From: Acinetobacter sp. A2
GTDB lineage: Bacteria; Pseudomonadota; Gammaproteobacteria; Pseudomonadales; Moraxellaceae
Direction of reading: 5' to 3'
Length of the DNA: 64,000 nucleotides
NCBI RefSeq assembly: GCF_012371325.1
Contig: NZ_JAAZQX010000008.1
Span: 1-64,000 of the forward strand
The notes below the pieces were generated by a model, which worked only from the letters and a program-made list of their open reading frames with translations, ran no database searches and was not told the DNA's origin. The position numbers were made by a program, and so were the translations under genes. Below, piece after piece: positions 38,538-61,463 of this stretch; position 1 is the first letter of the stretch, and each line of letters starts with the position of its first letter.

Positions 38538-40106
38538 ATGCCAGATTTAAAACAACATTCTGAGTTAAATCAGTATCATCTTGGCATGTGGTATGGTGCG
38601 TATCGGCTTTTAATTGCCTTTTGTTTACTGCTGATTACCCTACTCACCTTTCAGCAGCTTGGTTCACAGTATCAACATCCTGGTTTATATCTGTATACAC
38701 TGGTCTGCTATTTTGTGTTTAGCTGTGTGCAACTGATCAGCTATAAATATATTCCCTTCAAAAGCAGCCAACAACTGACTCTATTTTTTGCGGTTGATAT
38801 TATTGCGCTGAGTAGCCTGACTTTTGCAACCGATGGACCCAACCTCTATTTAAGTTTATTGTTTGTGATCACGATTTTTGCGGCATCGTTATTGCTGCAA
38901 AAACGTAAAGCCTTAGCCATCACCCTCATTGCCATGATTATGGTGATTTACCAACATTTTGTTGGCAGCTTACTGGCCTTTTCTTCACTGAATAATATTG
39001 GTCATAGTGCCCTGCTGGCATTTTTATTTTGGGTGGTCTATGGCAGTGGCCGTATTGCGGTACGACGCTTTCAGCTGTTAGAAAATCTCAACTTTTCGCA
39101 ATCTTTAGAACTGCACCGCCTACAAAATATTAATCGGTATATTTTAGAACAAACGGAAATGGGTTATTTGGTGCTAGATGAAAATTGTCATGTGGTTTTA
39201 AGCAACCCTGCGGCCTGTTATTTATTGGGTATTCCTGCACAATACGCACACTCAACCTATCCACTGTATAAAATTCAGCCCGATTTATTTGATCTGTTCA
39301 AATTTGACCAGTTACAAGATGGTGAAAAATTTCAGTTTGAATCACAACTCAGCAATTTTCACGTGCATATTCAGGTGCAAAAACTCAAAGTACCGCATCA
39401 AACATTAACCTTATTGGCACTTCAGGATGGACAAAAAATAAATCAACAAGTCCAGCAACTCAAACTGGCGGCCTTAGGGCAATTATCAGCCAGTATTGCC
39501 CACGAAATCCGTAATCCACTGGCTGCCATTGTACAGGCCAATACGCTCCTCAGTGGCAGTGACGCAGCACAACAACAATTGTTGTCCGGCATGATCAGTA
39601 AACAAGCGGCCCGGATTGATAAAATTATTCACGACACCTTAAGTATGGTGAAAAACAAACAAACCACACCTGTAGTGATTCAGCTAAACCAATTTTTGCC
39701 GCAACTCATTAGGGAAGATTTACCCGATGCTGCCAGTAAAATTCGGCTGCAACTTGAAAATCAAATCAGTATTCTGTTTGATGAATTACAGTTACGCCAA
39801 GTGCTAATAAACCTGATTCGCAATGCCATTCGACACAATTCAGCAGATCAGCAAGCCATAGAAATTCATGCATATCATCAAGCAAGTCATATTTACATTG
39901 ATGTACAGGATTTTGGCTCAGGGGTTGCCAGTCAGGATATTCGCTATCTGTTCCAACCATTTTTCAGTACCGAAATTAATGGAACTGGTTTAGGATTATA
40001 TTTATCACATAGTTTTTGCGAAGCCAATCAAGCCAAGCTAAGCTATGTAGAACAAAAACAAGGGGCATGTTTCAGAATTAAATGCCAATGCCCACCCGCG
40101 ATTTAG
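38538..40106 (+). CDS. pilS: Sensor histidine kinase PilS
   Basis: Controls type IV pilin transcription with PilR. The 522-aa protein has six N-terminal transmembrane helices (about residues 20-185), a PAS-like region, the phospho-His box HEIRNPLAAI (about 320-330) and ATPase motifs RNAIRH (N box), DFGSG (G1) and GTGLGLYLS (G2, about 480). pilR follows 43 bases downstream. Confidence 0.94.
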   Translation: MPDLKQHSELNQYHLGMWYGAYRLLIAFCLLLITLLTFQQLGSQYQHPGLYLYTLVCYFVFSCVQLISYKYIPFKSSQQLTLFFAVDIIALSSLTFATDGPNLYLSLLFVITIFAASLLLQKRKALAITLIAMIMVIYQHFVGSLLAFSSLNNIGHSALLAFLFWVVYGSGRIAVRRFQLLENLNFSQSLELHRLQNINRYILEQTEMGYLVLDENCHVVLSNPAACYLLGIPAQYAHSTYPLYKIQPDLFDLFKFDQLQDGEKFQFESQLSNFHVHIQVQKLKVPHQTLTLLALQDGQKINQQVQQLKLAALGQLSASIAHEIRNPLAAIVQANTLLSGSDAAQQQLLSGMISKQAARIDKIIHDTLSMVKNKQTTPVVIQLNQFLPQLIREDLPDAASKIRLQLENQISILFDELQLRQVLINLIRNAIRHNSADQQAIEIHAYHQASHIYIDVQDFGSGVASQDIRYLFQPFFSTEINGTGLGLYLSHSFCEANQAKLSYVEQKQGACFRIKCQCPPAI

Positions 40107-40149
40107 TCTTTATTTAACGATGTAGTTTTTGTGTTGTTTTGGGGAAAAT

Positions 40150-41577
40150 ATGCACGCTGTTCAACCTTTGGTTTTATTGGTCGATGACGAAGAAGACCTT
40201 TGTACTCTTATGCAAATGACTTTGGCTCGCATGGGCATTCAAACTCATGTGGCCTACCGTCTGGAACAAGCGAAACAGCGTTTGGCTGAACATCATTATG
40301 ATGCTTGTTTAACCGACTTAAACCTACCCGATGGCAATGGTATACAACTGGTGGAATTCATTGCAGAGCAATATCCCAATTTACCCGTAGCCGTGTTAAC
40401 AGCTTATGGCAATATGGAAATTGCAATTGCGGCATTAAAGGCGGGTGCATTTGACTTTGTTAGCAAACCAGTTAATCAGATGCATTTGCAGCAACTCCTT
40501 GAAAAAGCGCTAAATAAGCCGTTTGATAAAGCCGAACCAAACAGCCAAGATCAACTCGAATACAAAATGTTGATTGGGCAATCTTTGCCTATTCAGCAAT
40601 TACGCAGCACCATCAAAAAAATTGCCCGCTCGCAAGCGCCTGTGTTTATTACAGGCGAATCAGGTACAGGGAAAGAAGTAGTTGCCAATTTGGTACACCG
40701 TTTAAGTAACCGCAATGAAGGGCCATTTATTGCAATTAACTGCGGGGCAATTCCAACCGAGCTCATGGAAAGCGAGCTGTTTGGGCATAAAAAAGGCAGC
40801 TTTACAGGCGCAACCCAAGACAAACAGGGTTTGATTCAATCTGCACATGGTGGCAGCTTGTTCTTAGATGAAATAGCCGAGTTGCCACTGAGTATGCAAG
40901 TCAAACTGCTGCGTGCGGTTCAGGAAAAACGGATTCGTCCTGTCGGTTCAGACACCGAAATTGATGTCGATTTTCGTGTGATCAGTGCCAGTCATCAAGA
41001 CTTAGAAAGTTTGGTTCAGCAAGGACGTTTCCGTCAGGATTTATTTTTCCGTATTCATGTGATGGATTTGGTTTTGCCTGCCCTGCGTGAACGTGAACAA
41101 GATATTTTATTACTGGCAGATCACTTCATTCAAAAAGTCGCACAAGAATGGGATATTCCTGCTAAACAGCTCACCCCACGGGCCCAGCAATTTTTACTGG
41201 AACAATACTATCCTGGCAACGTGCGTGAATTACGCAATATTATTGAACGCGCCATGACCCTGAGTGATGATGCCGTCATTGATCTACAACACCTGCAAAC
41301 TGCGCCATTACGACAGTTTAGTATGGAAACTAGCACTGAGACTCCGTCATCCTCAGACACAAATAACACACTCATGTCAGATGCGATGCCAACAGGACGT
41401 AAACTGCCAGAAGAAGGTTTAGAAGCTTATTTAGAAAAAGTGGAAAAAGATATTTTACTGAATGCCCTGAATCTAACCCACTGGAACCGCACCTTAGCCG
41501 CAAAAAAACTGGGGATGTCTTTCCGTTCTTTACGTTATCGTTTGAAAAAATTTGGGCTTGATACTGAAGATGAATAA
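40150..41577 (+). CDS. pilR: Sigma-54-dependent response regulator PilR
   Basis: A 475-aa NtrC-type activator with a receiver domain (DDEED, phospho-Asp in CLTDLNLPDG, Lys in FVSKPV), an AAA+ domain with Walker A GESGTGKE (about 168), the sigma-54 loop GSFTGA (about 216), Walker B FLDEIAELP, and a Fis-type HTH at the C-terminus (NRTLAAKKLGMSFRSLRYRL). Drives pilA from a -24/-12 promoter. I chose ATG 40150 behind GGGGAAAA; an in-frame TTG seven codons earlier is unlikely. Confidence 0.95.
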   Translation: MHAVQPLVLLVDDEEDLCTLMQMTLARMGIQTHVAYRLEQAKQRLAEHHYDACLTDLNLPDGNGIQLVEFIAEQYPNLPVAVLTAYGNMEIAIAALKAGAFDFVSKPVNQMHLQQLLEKALNKPFDKAEPNSQDQLEYKMLIGQSLPIQQLRSTIKKIARSQAPVFITGESGTGKEVVANLVHRLSNRNEGPFIAINCGAIPTELMESELFGHKKGSFTGATQDKQGLIQSAHGGSLFLDEIAELPLSMQVKLLRAVQEKRIRPVGSDTEIDVDFRVISASHQDLESLVQQGRFRQDLFFRIHVMDLVLPALREREQDILLLADHFIQKVAQEWDIPAKQLTPRAQQFLLEQYYPGNVRELRNIIERAMTLSDDAVIDLQHLQTAPLRQFSMETSTETPSSSDTNNTLMSDAMPTGRKLPEEGLEAYLEKVEKDILLNALNLTHWNRTLAAKKLGMSFRSLRYRLKKFGLDTEDE

Positions 41578-54178: not shown

Positions 54179-55591
54179 TTATTCTACACGTTCACCATGT
54201 TGGCTTAAGTCGAGTCCCATACGCTCATCTTCTGCAGCCACACGAATACCGATGGTTAGATCAATTACTTTTAAGATGATGAAAGTCAGTATAGCTGAGT
54301 AAGCAATGGTCGCTAACACACCTTCAACTTGCACCCAAAGTTGGCTCATCAAGTTGCTTGGTGCAGCATCGCCCATAATAAACTCGCTGGCAAAGAAGGC
54401 GGTTAAAATTGCACCGACAATACCACCTACACCATGTAGTCCAAAGGCATCTAGAGAGTCATCAGCTTTCAGGGCGCGTTTTAAGGCAGTAATACCCCAG
54501 AAACATACGACACCACCAATTAAACCCATCGCTAATGCACCACCAACAGTCACAAAACCTGCTGCTGGAGTAATCACCACCAAACCTGCAACAGCACCCG
54601 ATGCAGCACCTAATACCGAACCTTTACCACGTACCAGTTTTTCAACAACAAGCCATGCGATTGCTGCGGCTGCGGCTGCCACTTGAGTCACAACTAAGGC
54701 ATAACCCGCTGCACCATTCGCGCCTAAAGCAGAACCACCGTTGAAACCAAACCAGCCCACCCAGAGTAAACTGGCACCCAGTACAGTCAAAGTCAGGTTA
54801 TGCGGAGCCATAGATTCACGGCCCAAGCCCATACGTTTGCCCAACATGTATGCAGCAACCAAACCTGCAACACCCGAGTTAATATGAACAACAGTACCAC
54901 CAGCAAAATCAAGTGCACCATCATTGCCTAACCAACCACCACCCCATACCCAGTGGGTAATTGGTGCATAGACCACGACCACCCAGATCGCGATAAAGGC
55001 AACAAAGGCACCAAACTTCATTCGTTCTGCAATTGAACCACTGATAATTGCCACAGTAATAATGGCAAAGGTCATTTGGAATATCACAAATAGAATTTCA
55101 GGAATACTGCCACTGAGCGCATCGGTACCAATGCCCGCCAGCATGACTTTGTCTAGACCACCAATAAAGGCATTACCTTCACCAAAAGCCAAACTATAGC
55201 CCACTGCCACCCAGGCAATACTGACCACGGCTGCTGCTACAAAGCTATAGGCCATAGTATTGAGTACGTTTTTCTTGCGTACCATACCGCCATAAAACAG
55301 TGCCAAACCAGGAATGGTCATGAGTAAAACTAAAGCAGTCGAAACTAAAATCCAAGCGGTATCGCCTGTATCTAATACAGCTTCTGGTTCAGCAGCTTCA
55401 GTCGTGCTGACTTCTGCTACAGCTGCAACTTCTGTTGTTGCATTTGTTGTTTCGATAGGAGATGTTTCGGCAGTTTCAAGCACTGCAACATCTGAAGTTG
55501 GTGCGGTGGCTGTTACGGCTTCTTCAGCCCAAGCAACAGAACCACCAAGAAGTGCGCCTGATAGACTCAGCGCGAGTAGCATTTTTTTCAT
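54179..55591 (-). CDS. amtB: Ammonium transporter AmtB
   Basis: Trimeric ammonium channel of the inner membrane, gated by PII. The 470-aa protein has a signal peptide (about 1-22), an unusual Thr/Ala/Glu-rich low-complexity extension (about 23-75), then eleven transmembrane helices with the Amt core: DTGDTAWILVSTALVLLMT, ALFYGGMVRKKNVLNTM, FAGGTVVHINSGVAG and GLHGVGG. glnK lies 63 bases upstream; both likely share the sigma-54 element at 56035-56050. Confidence 0.95.
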   Translation of the reverse strand: MKKMLLALSLSGALLGGSVAWAEEAVTATAPTSDVAVLETAETSPIETTNATTEVAAVAEVSTTEAAEPEAVLDTGDTAWILVSTALVLLMTIPGLALFYGGMVRKKNVLNTMAYSFVAAAVVSIAWVAVGYSLAFGEGNAFIGGLDKVMLAGIGTDALSGSIPEILFVIFQMTFAIITVAIISGSIAERMKFGAFVAFIAIWVVVVYAPITHWVWGGGWLGNDGALDFAGGTVVHINSGVAGLVAAYMLGKRMGLGRESMAPHNLTLTVLGASLLWVGWFGFNGGSALGANGAAGYALVVTQVAAAAAAIAWLVVEKLVRGKGSVLGAASGAVAGLVVITPAAGFVTVGGALAMGLIGGVVCFWGITALKRALKADDSLDAFGLHGVGGIVGAILTAFFASEFIMGDAAPSNLMSQLWVQVEGVLATIAYSAILTFIILKVIDLTIGIRVAAEDERMGLDLSQHGERVE

Positions 55592-55654
55592 TTGTGTCCC
55601 CCGACCTTTGTTTTTGTGAGTTATTAGGTACTCAGCAAACTTCGTGCCATTTTC

Positions 55655-56029
<375 letters not shown>

Positions 56030-56034
56030 TTATG

Positions 56035-56050
56035 TTCAAATTCCATGCCA
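56035..56050 (-). promoter_or_regulatory. Sigma-54 (-24/-12) promoter candidate for glnK-amtB
   Basis: On the minus strand TGGCATGGAATTTGAA matches the TGGCAC-N5-TTGCA consensus except at C6 and C15, with correct spacing of the invariant GG and G. It lies 42 bases upstream of glnK. I found no clear NtrC dyad in the sequence further up to 56268. Confidence 0.6.
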
Positions 56051-56268: not shown

Positions 56269-56496
56269 ATGATTGAAACTTTATTACAAGCCATTTTGGA
56301 ACAAATTGAACAACCCAAAAAAGATTTAGAACATAATTTACGTGCTTTACTGAATGAAGCCGTGACAAAAATGGATTTGGTCTCTCAAGATGAGCTAGAT
56401 CGTCAGCGTACTGCGCTGAATAATGCCAATTTGCGTTTAAATGAATTGTTAAAACAAGTCGAAATGCTCGAACAAAAGATGCAGCTCAAAAAATAA
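56269..56496 (+). CDS. ubiK: Ubiquinone biosynthesis accessory factor UbiK
   Basis: A 75-aa YqiC/BMFP-type protein. It begins MIETLLQAILEQIEQPKKDL and ends in a trimerising coiled coil (LRLNELLKQVEMLEQKM). UbiK assists the UbiJ-containing aerobic ubiquinone complex. I chose ATG 56269 because homologues start there; the frame is open 14 codons further up. It is immediately followed by comM, the order seen in Pseudomonas-type genomes. Confidence 0.85.
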   Translation: MIETLLQAILEQIEQPKKDLEHNLRALLNEAVTKMDLVSQDELDRQRTALNNANLRLNELLKQVEMLEQKMQLKK

Positions 56497-56565: not shown

Positions 56566-58054
56566 ATGTCTTTTGCCAAAGTTTATACACGGGGGCTATT
56601 GGGTCTGCACGCCCCTGCCATTGAAGTCGAAGTCCATTTAAGTCAGGGTTTACCCTCTTTGACGATTGTCGGCTTAGCCGAAGCGGCAGTCCGTGAAAGT
56701 AAAGATCGGGTACGGCTCTGCCATTATCAATAGTGGTTTTCAATTTCCAAGCAAACGTCTAACCATTAATTTAGCACCAGCAGACTTACCTAAAGATGGT
56801 TCTCGCCTTGACCTTGCCATTGCTTTGGGCATTTTGATTGCTTCAGGTCAACTGCCCGAACACAGTAGCGATGGTTTAGAATTTATTGGTGAACTGGCTT
56901 TAGATGGTCAATTGCGTCCAACTACAGGTACGCTGAGTATTGCGATTGCCTGCCAACAGGCACAGCACTGTTTAGTTTTACCCGAACAAAATGCGCAAGA
57001 AGCCGCACAATTACCAGACTTTGAAGTTTTTGCTGCCAATCACTTAAAACAAGTTTGTGAGCATTTGGCACAACATCAGCCACTTCATAAAGTCACGCCA
57101 GTAAACCAGCCTTTGCTCTCGGCTTCGGCTTTTGATCTGGCAGATGTAAAAGGGCAATTACGCCCAAGACGTGCTTTGGAAATTGCAGCAGCAGGCGGAC
57201 ACTCCTTGTTGTTTAAAGGCCCGCCAGGCACAGGTAAAACCTTGTTGGCTTCTCGCCTTGCCAGTATTTTACCGCCCTTAGATTTACAAGAAAATTTACA
57301 AGTTGCGAGTATCTACTCAGTCGCCAACACACCGCATACTTTTGGGCAACGCCCATTTCGTGCCCCACACCATACTGCCTCTGCCGTAGCATTGGTCGGG
57401 GGTGGCTCATATCCAAAACCTGGCGAAATCACGCTGGCGCACTTAGGCGTGTTGTTTTTAGATGAATTACCTGAGTTTGATAAGAAAGTATTAGAAGTAT
57501 TGCGGCAACCGTTGGAGTCTAAAGAAATTGTGATTTCTCGGGCATCGCGACAAATTACCTTTCCAGCGAACTTTCAATTGGTGGCTGCAATGAACCCCTG
57601 CCCCTGTGGTTATGCTTTTAATCAGGACGTGCGCTGTCAATGCTCTACAGAAAGTATTAAACGCTATCAAAATCGTATTTCAGGGCCACTGTTAGACCGC
57701 ATTGATTTACATATTGATGTTCCACCACTACAAGCCCATGAATTACAAGACAGTAGACCTGTTGAAGATTCCGAAACGGTGCGAAAACGCGTAATTCAAG
57801 CTTATGAATTGCAAATGCAACGACAAAAGGGCTTAAATATGTCGCTCAGCCCAAAACAATTAGAACAGTTTGCCCTATTAGATGGCACTGCACAGGATAT
57901 TTTAACCATTGCACAACAACGGTTAAATTTGTCTGCACGCGCTTATCATCGGGTGTTACGCGTCGCACGTACTATTGCAGACTTGGCGCAAAGTGAACAG
58001 ATTCAAAGCGGCCATTTGAGTGAAGCATTGTCTTATCGTGGCAATCCAGCCTAG
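56566..58054 (+). pseudogene. comM: comM, Mg-chelatase-like AAA+ ATPase, broken by a +1 frameshift
   Basis: ComM is a hexameric branch-migration helicase for natural transformation. Frame 1 from ATG 56566 reads MSFAKVYTRGLLGLHAPAIE through EAAVRESKDRVR and stops at TAG about 56732. The rest (SAIINSGFQFPSKRLTINLAPADLP onward) continues in another frame to 58054. One extra G in TACGGCTC at 56714-56715 explains the shift; removing it gives an uninterrupted 495-aa ComM with Walker A FKGPPGTGKT, Walker B LFLDELPEF and the Cys-rich CPCGY region. The gene may be inactive, or this may be a sequencing or assembly error. Confidence 0.9.
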
Positions 58055-58176: not shown

Positions 58177-58929
58177 TTAGAATGCTTTGGTCAAAGTAAA
58201 CACAGCACCTGTTTCAACACCACGCTTCGCAGCGTGTGACATGCCATCTGTATCAATATCTGTACCAACTGCAGCCAATTCAGCAGATAAACCTTCTACT
58301 GATGCAAAGCTATAGCTCACACCTGCTTTCCAGTCGATATAACTGTCTTCACCACCACCAAAATCAAAATCATCTGCTAGGGTGTAACCAATACCCGCAA
58401 CACCTGAAAAACCTGTATCTGCAAACGGTACGCTATAAGTTGCATTGAAATACCAAGCATCTGTATCACCACCTAGAAAATCATTGGAGTAGTTAATTGC
58501 GGTAGATAAGCTGGCATCTTTAAATCCTACATCGCTAAAGCCCAATTTGGCATAGGCTTCCAACCAGTTTAAATCGCTTTCACTTGGGTAAAGGTAATAC
58601 CATAGACCCACGTCTAATAATGGCTTGCTGGCAAAACTGTCTAAAGTAGTGGCATAACCCAAATAAGGGTCAAGTTCTAAATGTGCTGTGCCGCCAAAAT
58701 CGACATTGGAACCCCACACACCTGCATAAAGGCCTGAATCATGGCTCAACGCAAAACCCGCTTGCACCGCAGGATCACTCATTGTTTGTGTCATGCCACG
58801 AAAACGATAATCACTGGTCATTGCCGCAGTACCACTAAAAGACAATGCTGAAGTTGATTCTGATGCCATGCTTAGACCAGATGCTGCCATCATCGCTGCT
58901 GCAAAAAGTGTTTTAAATCCCATGTTCAT
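58177..58929 (-). CDS. TorF-family putative outer-membrane porin
   Basis: A 250-aa predicted beta-barrel with a signal peptide (about 1-23, ending MAS-E). The family hallmark follows: SGTAAMTSDYRFRGMTQTMSDPAVQAG, then alternating aromatic strands and a terminal Phe (TLTKAF). This matches the Gcw_chp/TorF group, whose substrate is not established. GGGGG lies eight bases before ATG 58929. A perfect sigma-54 promoter element sits about 64 bases upstream (58993-59008). With glnK-amtB 2.2 kb away, a nitrogen-related uptake role is plausible but inferred. Confidence 0.85.
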   Translation of the reverse strand: MNMGFKTLFAAAMMAASGLSMASESTSALSFSGTAAMTSDYRFRGMTQTMSDPAVQAGFALSHDSGLYAGVWGSNVDFGGTAHLELDPYLGYATTLDSFASKPLLDVGLWYYLYPSESDLNWLEAYAKLGFSDVGFKDASLSTAINYSNDFLGGDTDAWYFNATYSVPFADTGFSGVAGIGYTLADDFDFGGGEDSYIDWKAGVSYSFASVEGLSAELAAVGTDIDTDGMSHAAKRGVETGAVFTLTKAF

Positions 58930-58992
58930 GATTATTCCCCCTGCATCTGATGAGATGCTTGTGTCTATTGTTGTTTAACTCACATGGAGAAT

Positions 58993-59008
58993 TGCAAACC
59001 GTGTGCCA
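58993..59008 (-). promoter_or_regulatory. Consensus sigma-54 promoter of the TorF-type porin
   Basis: On the minus strand TGGCACACGGTTTGCA is an exact match to TGGCAC-N5-TTGCA. Transcription would start near 58981, giving a leader of about 50 bases before ATG 58929. A sigma-54 activator (NtrC, PilR or other) would be required; its site is not evident. Confidence 0.8.
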
Positions 59009-60085
59009 ACATTCAAAAAAACAAGATTTCCCATACTTAGAATAGCCTCACAACCACATATAAATAATTGTTATTTATATTTATTTTCAAATTAATAAAT
59101 TTCTTATTTTTATCACTGTGGCCTATAAGATACTTTTTTTATTCTTTTTAGGTAGATGTTTAAGTCATATTTACTGTGCAGATACCGAATACATTGCAAT
59201 ATTTTTGATGTGCCTGACTTAGAACTCCATTTTAAACTACCTAAAAAAGTGCAATAACATTTATTCCCACATCTTTGCATATACTAAAAACTGGGACAAA
59301 GTCATTACTCATATGCTTATAGCCCCTTGCCCATTAAGGGCAAACAGCATGTTTGGCCTAGAAAAAATATTTTTGAATGCGAATAATTTTTTTGCACCAA
59401 GAACATGCATATCATTCAAATTGTTAAACCGAATAGCCAATGTGAGATTTCAGCAGCATTGTGGCAGGCCGATGCAATCTCTTCTGAAGTTATTACACTT
59501 AAAAATTTAGCGAAAAGAGAAATACTAATTGGGTCAAATTCATCAAAAACAGCGCAAATAAAACACTGTATTTCACATGAAATACCTCATAGCTAAAAAC
59601 TATTAGTTACCCCATAAACACCTTTCTATTTTTTATACTTTTAGTTCAAATAAAAACCAAAATATCCAACTTTATCTATTTTTAAATTTAAAACCGCACT
59701 TTTGAAGAAATACTTAACAAGATGAAATAAATATAAAACTTTAGGTTTTTACTTACTTATTTCGCCATAAATTCTTAACTTAAACTGCTGAAATATTAAA
59801 CAAAGATGATTTTATGGCTAAAATTTACAAAAAACTTAAAGCATTGCTCCCAAGTCATCCATTCTAGCTGTTCAGCTCATTTAAAATTATGTTTATGTTT
59901 TTACTAAAAATTAAAATAATTATTAAACTTTTAAAAATTCAATATTTTTAATGACCCTACAGTTTATCGAAAAAATGCTTAACTTTAGTGTCATAAGCAC
60001 CTTAAAAATGATATTTTCGCGCCTAAATAGCGATACAATTCGGCTACGTTTCAACTACACATTTACTGCATGAGGCTCTCTCCCA
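59009..60085. other. AT-rich gene-poor region between the two porin genes
   Basis: About 1.08 kb without a gene I can support. It contains a perfect palindrome (59058-59080), a TTGCCC/GGGCAA hairpin (59327-59343), two overlapping short ORFs (59313-59510 and 59405-59596) with no recognisable family, and a TACAAT -10-like box at 60034-60039 ahead of the OprD-type gene. It could hold regulatory DNA, a decayed gene or an unrecognised RNA. Confidence 0.5.
59058..59080. repeat. Perfect 10-bp palindrome upstream of the TorF-type porin
   Basis: ATATAAATAA and TTATTTATAT flank TTG. It lies 50 bases upstream of the sigma-54 element, a distance at which enhancer-binding or repressor proteins can act. 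It loosely resembles AT-rich Fur-type sites but is not a good match. Confidence 0.5.
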
Positions 60086-61408
60086 ATGCTGAAATCTAAA
60101 AAACTGACACTTGCGTTATTGATCAACGCAGCGCTTATTTCAACTGCATTTGCTAGCGAACAAAGTGAATCTAAAGGCTTTATAGAAGACGCAAACGGTT
60201 CGGTTTTATTCCGTACAGGCTATTTAGCTCGTGACTATAAAGATGTAGCCCCTGATACAGATACCAGTTCATTTGCACAAACAGCAATCATAAAATTAGA
60301 TTCAGGCTTTACCAAAGGTGTAGTCGGTTTTGGTGCAGGGATTATTGGTGATGCTTCATTCAAGCTAGGCGAAAATGCGCATACGGGCAACGGAATGATT
60401 CCAACACATAATGATGGCTCTGCTTATGACCATTGGGCACGTGGTGGTGCTTATGTAAAAGCACGTATTTCCAATACAACAGCAACTTACGGTACACAAG
60501 TACTCGATTTACCTGTATTAGCTAGCAACACTGCCCGCTTAGTACCTGAATATTTCACGGGTGTACTCGTTCAAAGCAATGAAATTGATAACTTAAACTT
60601 GGTTGCAGGTAAATTTACTGAAAACCAATATTCAAGCCAAATCAATTCAGATGGTAATCAATTAGACCGTGCTGTGGTATGGGGCGCGAAATATACATTT
60701 AATGATGACTTAAAAGCATCTTATTATGGTGTTGATGTTAAGGATAAATTAGATCGTCACTATGCCAATGTGAACTATAACCACGGCTTAAAAGATGATG
60801 CTGCTCTTAACTTTGATCTAAGCGGCTACCACACAAAATTCTCTAAAGATGCTTCAACTTATTCAGCAACAGGTACGATTGCAAACACTGCCTATGGTAC
60901 AAATGCAGAGAATGGTGGAATTGCAGGAACAGAGAAAACCAATGACATTTGGGCGATCTCTACCTCATATAGCAAAGATGTACACAATGTGATGTTGGCT
61001 TACCAACAAAACTTTGGTGATGTAGGCTATGACTACGGCGGCAACGCAGATGGTGCTCAATCTATTTATGTACCTAACTCGTATTTGTCTGATTTTGTAG
61101 GCAATGACGAAAAATCTTTAGGCTTACAATACAACTATAACTTTAAAAATCATGGTCTTCCAGGTCTAAACTGGACAACTGCTTTTGTTTACGGTTGGGA
61201 TATTGATGTTCGTGACCAAGCAAAAGAAGGACAAGAACGTGAATTCTTTAACCAAGTGAAATACACCGTTCAATCAGGTTTTGCGAAAGATGCTAGCTTA
61301 CGTCTACGTCATTCATACTACCGTGCAAACGATGAATACAAGAGCGTATATATGCCAGACACCAACGAATGGCGTATCTGGTTAGATATTCCTGTGAAAT
61401 TATTCTAA
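60086..61408 (+). CDS. OprD-family outer-membrane porin
   Basis: A 440-aa protein with a signal peptide (MLKSKKLTLALLINAALISTAFA) and an 18-strand-type OprD barrel. The N-terminal GFIEDANGSVLFRTGYLARDYKD is diagnostic of the OprD/OccD-OccK family, followed by YGTQVLDLPVLASNTARLVPE and a terminal Phe (IPVKLF). Such channels carry amino acids, carboxylates or small aromatics; the substrate cannot be told from sequence. It is monocistronic with a strong terminator. Confidence 0.9.
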   Translation: MLKSKKLTLALLINAALISTAFASEQSESKGFIEDANGSVLFRTGYLARDYKDVAPDTDTSSFAQTAIIKLDSGFTKGVVGFGAGIIGDASFKLGENAHTGNGMIPTHNDGSAYDHWARGGAYVKARISNTTATYGTQVLDLPVLASNTARLVPEYFTGVLVQSNEIDNLNLVAGKFTENQYSSQINSDGNQLDRAVVWGAKYTFNDDLKASYYGVDVKDKLDRHYANVNYNHGLKDDAALNFDLSGYHTKFSKDASTYSATGTIANTAYGTNAENGGIAGTEKTNDIWAISTSYSKDVHNVMLAYQQNFGDVGYDYGGNADGAQSIYVPNSYLSDFVGNDEKSLGLQYNYNFKNHGLPGLNWTTAFVYGWDIDVRDQAKEGQEREFFNQVKYTVQSGFAKDASLRLRHSYYRANDEYKSVYMPDTNEWRIWLDIPVKLF

Positions 61409-61430: not shown

Positions 61431-61463
61431 AAAAAACCTGCACAAAAATTGTGCAGGTTTTTT
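61431..61463 (+). terminator. Bidirectional terminator between the OprD-type gene and ppa
   Basis: AAAACCTGCACAA/TTGTGCAGGTTTT with a 3-base loop; A6 on the left and T6 on the right let it serve both convergent genes. Confidence 0.93.

Follow-up and report, generated by a model that had tools for sequence, protein, structure and literature searches.

A TorF-family porin of Acinetobacter with a conserved sigma-54 element and a probable place among the nitrogen-starvation genes

The porin locus

The window, i.e., the whole stretch of 64,000 nucleotides of Acinetobacter sp. A2 that was analysed, carries on its minus strand a gene (58177-58929) encoding a 250-aa porin of the TorF family (TIGR02001/PF09694), with a likely signal peptide. 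Its divergent neighbour on the plus strand (60086-61408) encodes an OprD-family porin. On its other side lie two plus-strand genes, yifB/comM (56566-58054) and an ubiK-like gene (56269-56496), the latter scoring over the cut-off of PF04380 and below that of the UbiK equivalog model. Beyond them, two minus-strand genes identified by profile matches encode the PII regulator GlnK (55655-55993) and the ammonium transporter AmtB (54179-55591). In the plasmid collection, four records match a 16-kb stretch of the window by megablast, and all of them are from A. baumannii.

The yifB/comM gene of the window shows one frameshift near 56712 in the assembly, which is either a true break or a sequencing error. 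In several congeners (genomes G141, G001, G069 and G025), the yifB/comM matches come in two pieces, about 22 kb apart in G141. An A. baumannii record (L386) has aminoglycoside resistance genes near an ATP-binding-protein gene located beside glnK and taken for a comM remnant. These observations agree with the comM resistance-island site, which would lie between the porin gene and glnK. Just past oprD, a perfect palindrome (TGCACAAAAATTGTGCA, 61439-61455) could be either a terminator or a regulator site.

The TorF-family porin

The protein scores 154.9 bits against a cut-off of 47.15 for TIGR02001 (profile positions 6-244 of 244) and 138.1 against 24 for PF09694. Its predicted structure has 12 strands (pLDDT 86.7, pTM 0.80) and its C-terminal residue is F, so that it is predicted to be an outer-membrane beta-barrel. 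The nearest listed folds are KdgM (4pr7_A; Z 17.1, rmsd 2.5 over 170) and NanC (2wjq; Z 16.3, rmsd 3.1 over 194), with 8-9% identity in these rows; the nearest folds include acidic-oligosaccharide porins and the nucleoside channel Tsx. A profile search of solved structures found no relative up to E 1. Elsewhere in the same genome, a second TIGR02001 match is weak (49 bits, G000:C3:37644-38267).

As predicted by strand alternation, the charged residues facing the lumen are seven acidic and two basic ones. The 12-strand porins KdgM and NanC are lined by basic residues, whereas the conserved residues predicted to face the lumen of the window porin are acidic. E85 is found in 349 of 349 aligned ORFs, a set in which the window porin is counted twice (as L007 and, under the unlinked members, as L073; it appears once in the tree). 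D87, D106, E124 and D199 are present in all 100 first-lineage sequences from Acinetobacter loci. In the second lineage (n=65), D87 is found in 54 sequences and E or D at position 124, while D106 and D199 are not kept. These acidic residues are also kept in most members that are not linked to glnK-amtB, and hence represent a family trait rather than a signature of a nitrogen branch. An acidic net charge was also considered as a mark of linked barrels and rejected, the medians being -6.5 for linked barrels and -18 for unlinked ones.

Sigma-54 elements of the window

On the minus strand, at 58993-59008, the sequence TGGCACACGGTTTGCA shows no mismatch to TGGCAC-N5-TTGCW, with its GG and GC correctly spaced. 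The preliminary description had claimed an exact TGGCAC-N5-TTGCA about 64 nt before the porin ATG, and this stands: 64 nt separate the last base of the element from the ATG (58929), and the transcript is rightly expected to begin near 58981-58982. The element overlaps no listed ORF and is the single exact -24/-12 match of the window, about 0.02 being expected from base composition. When up to two mismatches are allowed, the window holds no surplus of sigma-54 sites (46 versus 38.9 expected), so that the weight of the case rests on the exactness, position and conservation of the porin element.

The whole genome (2.70 Mb, 71 contigs) contains six exact matches, versus two for a reversed control pattern, and four of the six fall within ORFs. 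The fifth exact match stands 40 nt ahead of a Met codon at 1556 of L004, which is a likely start of a persulfide-dioxygenase-like gene; the mechanical ORF of this gene begins earlier and thus covers the match. This gene is adjoined by a gene encoding a FisR-like activator. The same arrangement of element, gene and activator is described for the FisR system of A. baumannii in the accessible part of PMC7315123.

A weaker element with correct spacing had also been indicated before glnK, and it is indeed present on the minus strand (TGGCATGGAATTTGAA, 56035-56050). Its form is conserved, since TGGCAY-N5-TTGAA lies about 57 nt before the glnK ATG in 47 of the 47 Acinetobacter loci read (window included), GA replacing GC in the -12 half of all of them. 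Several genera of the family besides Acinetobacter also have a TTGAA -12 half, unusual for a sigma-54 promoter, before glnK (L359-L379).

Two features had been overlooked, an NtrC-type palindrome (see below) and a sigma-54 element of amtB on the minus strand (TGGCACGAAGTTTGCT, 55634-55649; one mismatch). The latter is located between glnK and amtB, 5 nt past the glnK stop and 43 nt ahead of the amtB ATG. It was found in all 45 loci that have sequence there, 2-7 nt past the glnK stop, two of the 47 loci ending before that stretch. An A. baumannii record likewise has both the glnK and the amtB elements. The possibility that glnK and amtB share a single weak element was rejected, as amtB carries its own, better one. 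Judging from the sequence, the porin gene, glnK and amtB have one candidate sigma-54 promoter each.

Conservation of the porin element in Acinetobacter

A relative of the porin is present in 146 of 149 Acinetobacter genomes. The 140 loci read comprise the 30 best (window included), 80 regions hand-picked among the matches listed, and 30 yifB loci from the 37 genomes with a low-scoring match or none, i.e., without a close porin relative. A porin was called syntenic when it lies at the yifB/oprD place, and a site was scored when it has at most two mismatches with GG and GC fixed.

The preliminary description had made its case depend on conservation of the element before orthologues. Such conservation was found, 113 of the 118 syntenic loci (window included) having at least one porin there with a sigma-54 site. 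Counted per hit, a site precedes 129 of 142 syntenic porins, while mononucleotide-shuffled upstream regions give one in 15 of 7600 cases. The conserved form is TGGCAY-N5-TTGCW, mostly located 75-89 nt above the aligned start. The element is eroded or lost at five syntenic loci with 47-52% identity (L313, L316, L318, L319 and L324).

Ten porin copies were scored as located elsewhere, and eight of them have no sigma-54 site. In the other two (L020 and L027), a site is present and the 1.5 kb of sequence covered shows neither yifB nor oprD, so that they count only provisionally as lying elsewhere. Many congeners (L011, L018, L023, L052 and others) have, next to the first lineage at the same locus, a second and distant one of the TorF family. 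Of the 43 syntenic hits with less than 37% identity, a site precedes 35 and is absent before eight. In 12 of the 140 loci, the porin hit is too short or absent for scoring; a TGGCAT...TTGCA element is nevertheless visible in two of them (L254 and L258).

A porin relative with 69% identity is carried by the Psychrobacter plasmid pPsychbacter006 (L385), with TGGCACGCCCTTTGCT 90 nt before its start. An A. nosocomialis plasmid (L387) carries a TorF-family porin gene with no sigma-54 element in 600 nt, near a gene of the glutamine synthetase family.

Candidate activators and the NtrC-type palindrome

The genome encodes RpoN (498 bits versus a cut-off of 277) and three proteins with strong matches to PF00158 (E below 1e-60), namely NtrC, a PilR-like and a FisR-like regulator. 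The other six PF00158 matches listed, among them YifB, are weak (E 1e-6 or more). NtrC scores 757 bits versus a cut-off of 620 and its neighbour NtrB 328 versus 240. Both ntrC and ntrB are among the fitness genes in the accessible part of PMC12604733. The PilR-like regulator, which scores below the NtrC cut-off, is encoded within the window (40129-41577) and is called so from its place and its kinase, whereas the FisR-like one was judged from its neighbours. The plus-strand region 38538-41577 as a whole encodes a sensor kinase followed by this sigma-54 response regulator, a pair that is PilSR-like by position.

A palindrome matching TGCAC-N7-ATGCA exactly (TGCACCAAGAACATGCA, 59393-59409) lies 385 nt above the -24 element of the porin, an unusually long distance, in the space shared with the divergent oprD, which it could serve instead. 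TGCAY-N7-RTGCA corresponds to the outer portion of the classical NtrC site, so that this palindrome is a putative NtrC site. It was scored first against an E. coli-type NtrC consensus, which was then simplified to TGCAY-N7-RTGCA after the upstream regions had been viewed. The Acinetobacter counts, for both porin and glnK upstream regions, are thus not blind, whereas in other genera the simplified form is put to a separate test.

In the 450 nt above the porin element, an exact palindrome is found in 25 of 111 loci (window included), versus a mean of 0.35 and a maximum of 1 in dinucleotide shuffles. With at least 9 of 10 positions matched, it is found in 80 of the 111 (shuffles: mean 6.5, maximum 14). 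Eleven other half-sites, used as controls above the porin element, give 0-1 exact matches each. Over the whole genome, there are 21 exact copies versus 11 for the reversed pattern, so that most copies, taken alone, carry no weight; one copy lies 210 nt before ntrB. In 75 glnK upstream regions, which were selected for a TTGAA-type element and hence give no measure of its frequency, the palindrome is exact in none and matched at 9 of 10 positions in six.

Gene order in other genera

TIGR02001 matches occur in 105 of 200 genomes sampled from the phylum (E 0.001), 92 of them over the cut-off, and a class-wide sample has the family in 119 of 229 genomes. Genes for ammonium transporters (amt) were searched for in the first 80 of the 118 porin-bearing genomes besides that of the window. 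In at least 45 of these 80 genomes, a TIGR02001 gene and an amt gene are no more than 5 kb apart (chance expectation about 0.6), and in 44 of them the porin is within 1 kb of amt. In up to 35, no amt gene was found within 5 kb of the porin among the matches listed.

The 80 best relatives listed for a Collimonas-type linked porin, a set that is biased to linked relatives as it was picked around a linked porin, show the order porin then glnK in 72 cases, 60 of which have a sigma-54 site. For the remaining eight, another copy stands in front of glnK in seven genomes. Gene order elsewhere thus supports the tie between porin and AmtB that had been proposed from the window. When all loci are scored together, a sigma-54 site precedes 94 of 119 linked porins (leaving 25 without a scored site), 10 of 48 unlinked ones and 69 of 2380 shuffles. 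The palindrome, matched at 9 or more of 10 positions, accompanies 59 of the 94 site-bearing linked loci (shuffle mean 3.8), and in most linked loci its distance above the -24 element is about 80-130 nt.

In many other Gammaproteobacteria (beta groups included), a sigma-54 element is followed by an operon of porin, glnK and amtB, in this order; elsewhere in the phylum, some genomes have the porin gene after amtB instead. In 12 of 26 glnK loci from Moraxellaceae outside the genus, it either separates ubiK from glnK or immediately precedes glnK. One of these genera (g370) already has the TTGAA-type glnK element, behind the porin gene. Genera without a porin here also have this type of element (g3, 3/3 loci; g368, 2/3 loci). 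The order yifB, ubiK, porin, glnK, amtB is taken as ancestral, on the basis of these sequence comparisons.

In the window, the porin gene is not directly in front of glnK-amtB, since yifB and ubiK, on the opposite strand, stand between them. It is therefore read as a displaced relative of nlmA, the gene that opens the nlmA-glnK-amtB operon of Herbaspirillum seropedicae, and not as an operon member. The gene orders seen in the other genera of the family lead to the reading that it moved past yifB together with a sigma-54 promoter. In the tree, the window porin joins a linked porin of the same family (L077) with an SH-aLRT of 94, under the threshold of 95. Descent of the window porin from a linked gene is thus supported but not settled.

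It should be added that all 14 control genomes match amt and that one of the 14 matches the TIGR02001 family, which indicates that AmtB needs no such barrel in general.

Comparison with known systems

According to the accessible part of PMC3023670, the nlmA-glnK-amtB operon of H. seropedicae is strongly induced under nitrogen limitation in an NtrC-dependent manner. NlmA was seen in membrane extracts and its authors place it most probably in the periplasm; the words "porin" and "outer membrane" do not occur in the main text. The likeness to the locus studied here lies in a membrane-protein gene ahead of glnK and amtB. The TIGR02001 identity comes from Herbaspirillum sp. RV1423, in which the gene in the nlmA position scores 163 bits, and not from H. 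seropedicae itself. Besides, the porin gene of the window differs from nlmA in being separated from glnK and amtB by yifB and ubiK, and each of these three genes has a sigma-54 element to itself.

In the same way, NB46_00251 of the OM43 methylotroph NB0046 belongs to a putative operon with the genes for PII and AmtB, and was about 1,900-fold up in a nutrient-depleted regime without added nitrogen and vitamins, the largest change among all genes (PMC5120137, accessible part). A TorF-family gene occupies this operon position in two Methylophilaceae loci (L190 and L208). The accessible part of that paper gives no family for NB46_00251, so that the likeness is one of operon position. Neither NlmA nor the NB46_00251 protein is called a porin in the accessible parts of PMC3023670 and PMC5120137.

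The family presumably owes its name to TorF of Shewanella oneidensis (SO4694). In the accessible part of PMC5955497, SO4694 is named a TMAO reductase system outer membrane porin and is not linked to nitrogen starvation. With TorF filed as a porin of the TMAO system, the family is not restricted to nitrogen starvation.

Literature searches on TIGR02001, Gcw_chp or "TorF family putative porin", on nlmA, and on glnK/amtB with porin gave no result among the papers listed, and the accessible parts of PMC8674442, PMC5491218 and PMC5979394 hold nothing on the TIGR02001 family. For Acinetobacter, the papers listed in a search on RpoN and NtrC yielded no expression data, and transport data did not come to light either.

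A probable porin of the nitrogen-starvation module

We consider it likely that the window porin is a displaced NlmA, i.e., the outer-membrane member of a nitrogen-starvation module made of porin, GlnK and AmtB. When fixed nitrogen is short, NtrB would phosphorylate NtrC, which, bound to palindromes upstream of the promoter, would remodel the sigma-54 RNA polymerase at the -24/-12 element, so that porin, GlnK and AmtB would be produced at the same time. The predicted 12-strand barrel could then give ammonium, or some other small nitrogen compound in short supply, a way through the outer membrane, and this supply would keep AmtB and other inner-membrane systems from being starved of substrate. 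The porin gene, once located ahead of glnK, would have been displaced beyond yifB and would have kept a sigma-54 promoter.

The steps of this explanation are not equally firm. Nitrogen control of the porin is well supported by the sequence comparisons. NtrC is very probably its activator in this genus, and a strong induction of the porin under nitrogen starvation is to be expected there with the same high confidence. That the barrel is a channel for nitrogen compounds is somewhat favoured, whereas ammonium itself as the substrate is rather doubtful. Several observations count against the explanation: the palindrome lies unusually far from the promoter and could serve oprD, glnK upstream regions lack it, some linked porins have no scored sigma-54 site while some unlinked ones have one, a few syntenic loci have lost the element, many genomes show no amt gene near the porin, TorF is filed under TMAO respiration, and AmtB does without the barrel in most control genomes. 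The preliminary description had proposed an outer-membrane channel of nitrogen starvation acting with AmtB; the conservation of the element, the gene order in other genera and the published expression of genes in the same operon position in two other bacteria all argue for a nitrogen-starvation barrel tied to glnK-amtB, which may or may not act as a channel together with AmtB. In nitrogen-starved cells, the pore is thus probably an outer door for scarce nitrogen.

Among the other explanations, the one that survives best accepts co-expression under nitrogen starvation and gives the barrel another task, either envelope adjustment or the passage of organic nitrogen or other solutes (amines, peptides, nucleosides) rather than ammonium. 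It would agree with the filing of TorF under TMAO respiration (PMC5955497, accessible part), with the presence of acidic-oligosaccharide porins and Tsx among the nearest folds, and with the 13 amt-positive control genomes out of 14 that have no match to the TIGR02001 family. Most linked loci, however, place the porin with glnK-amtB itself, and we regard this explanation as a serious possibility but not as the leading one.

It could also be argued that sigma-54 control is real and that the activator is not NtrC but the PilR-like or the FisR-like regulator, the porin then belonging to a surface or sulfide response. Both regulators are encoded by the genome, the PilR-like one within the window itself, and another exact element adjoins the FisR-like gene, as in A. 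baumannii (PMC7315123, accessible part). Nevertheless, the NtrC-type palindrome is enriched above the porin and also found before ntrB, and in other genera the sigma-54 element and the porin open a glnK-amtB operon of the kind that depends on NtrC in H. seropedicae (PMC3023670, accessible part), which makes control by PilR or FisR improbable. Finally, a chance -24/-12 match before a constitutive porin gene, which the four genomic matches inside ORFs and the lack of near-match excess in the window might suggest, is extremely improbable and was rejected because the element recurs in 113 of 118 loci, its distance hardly varying in most of them, versus 15 of 7600 shuffles.

A bolder proposal, which we hold to be rather unlikely on the present predictions, is that the TorF/NlmA barrels linked to glnK serve specifically to admit ammonium or small amine cations through the outer membrane. 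If true, such a gate would supply the outer-membrane half that high-affinity ammonium scavenging has been missing. The acidic ring predicted to face the lumen throughout the family would select cations, a property that would account for TorF of TMAO respiration as well as for the members linked to AmtB.

At the strength given above, the displaced-NlmA explanation assigns a probable outer-membrane barrel to the gene at the head of a known nitrogen operon, and it raises the question of whether ammonium scavenging includes a dedicated outer-membrane step. In Acinetobacter, three separate sigma-54 elements would allow the porin, the PII regulator and the channel to be controlled separately. For a family such as TIGR02001/Gcw_chp, annotated so far as porin or protein of unknown function, the tie of a large gene-order group to the NtrC/sigma-54 nitrogen-starvation response and glnK-amtB gives a role that can be tested.
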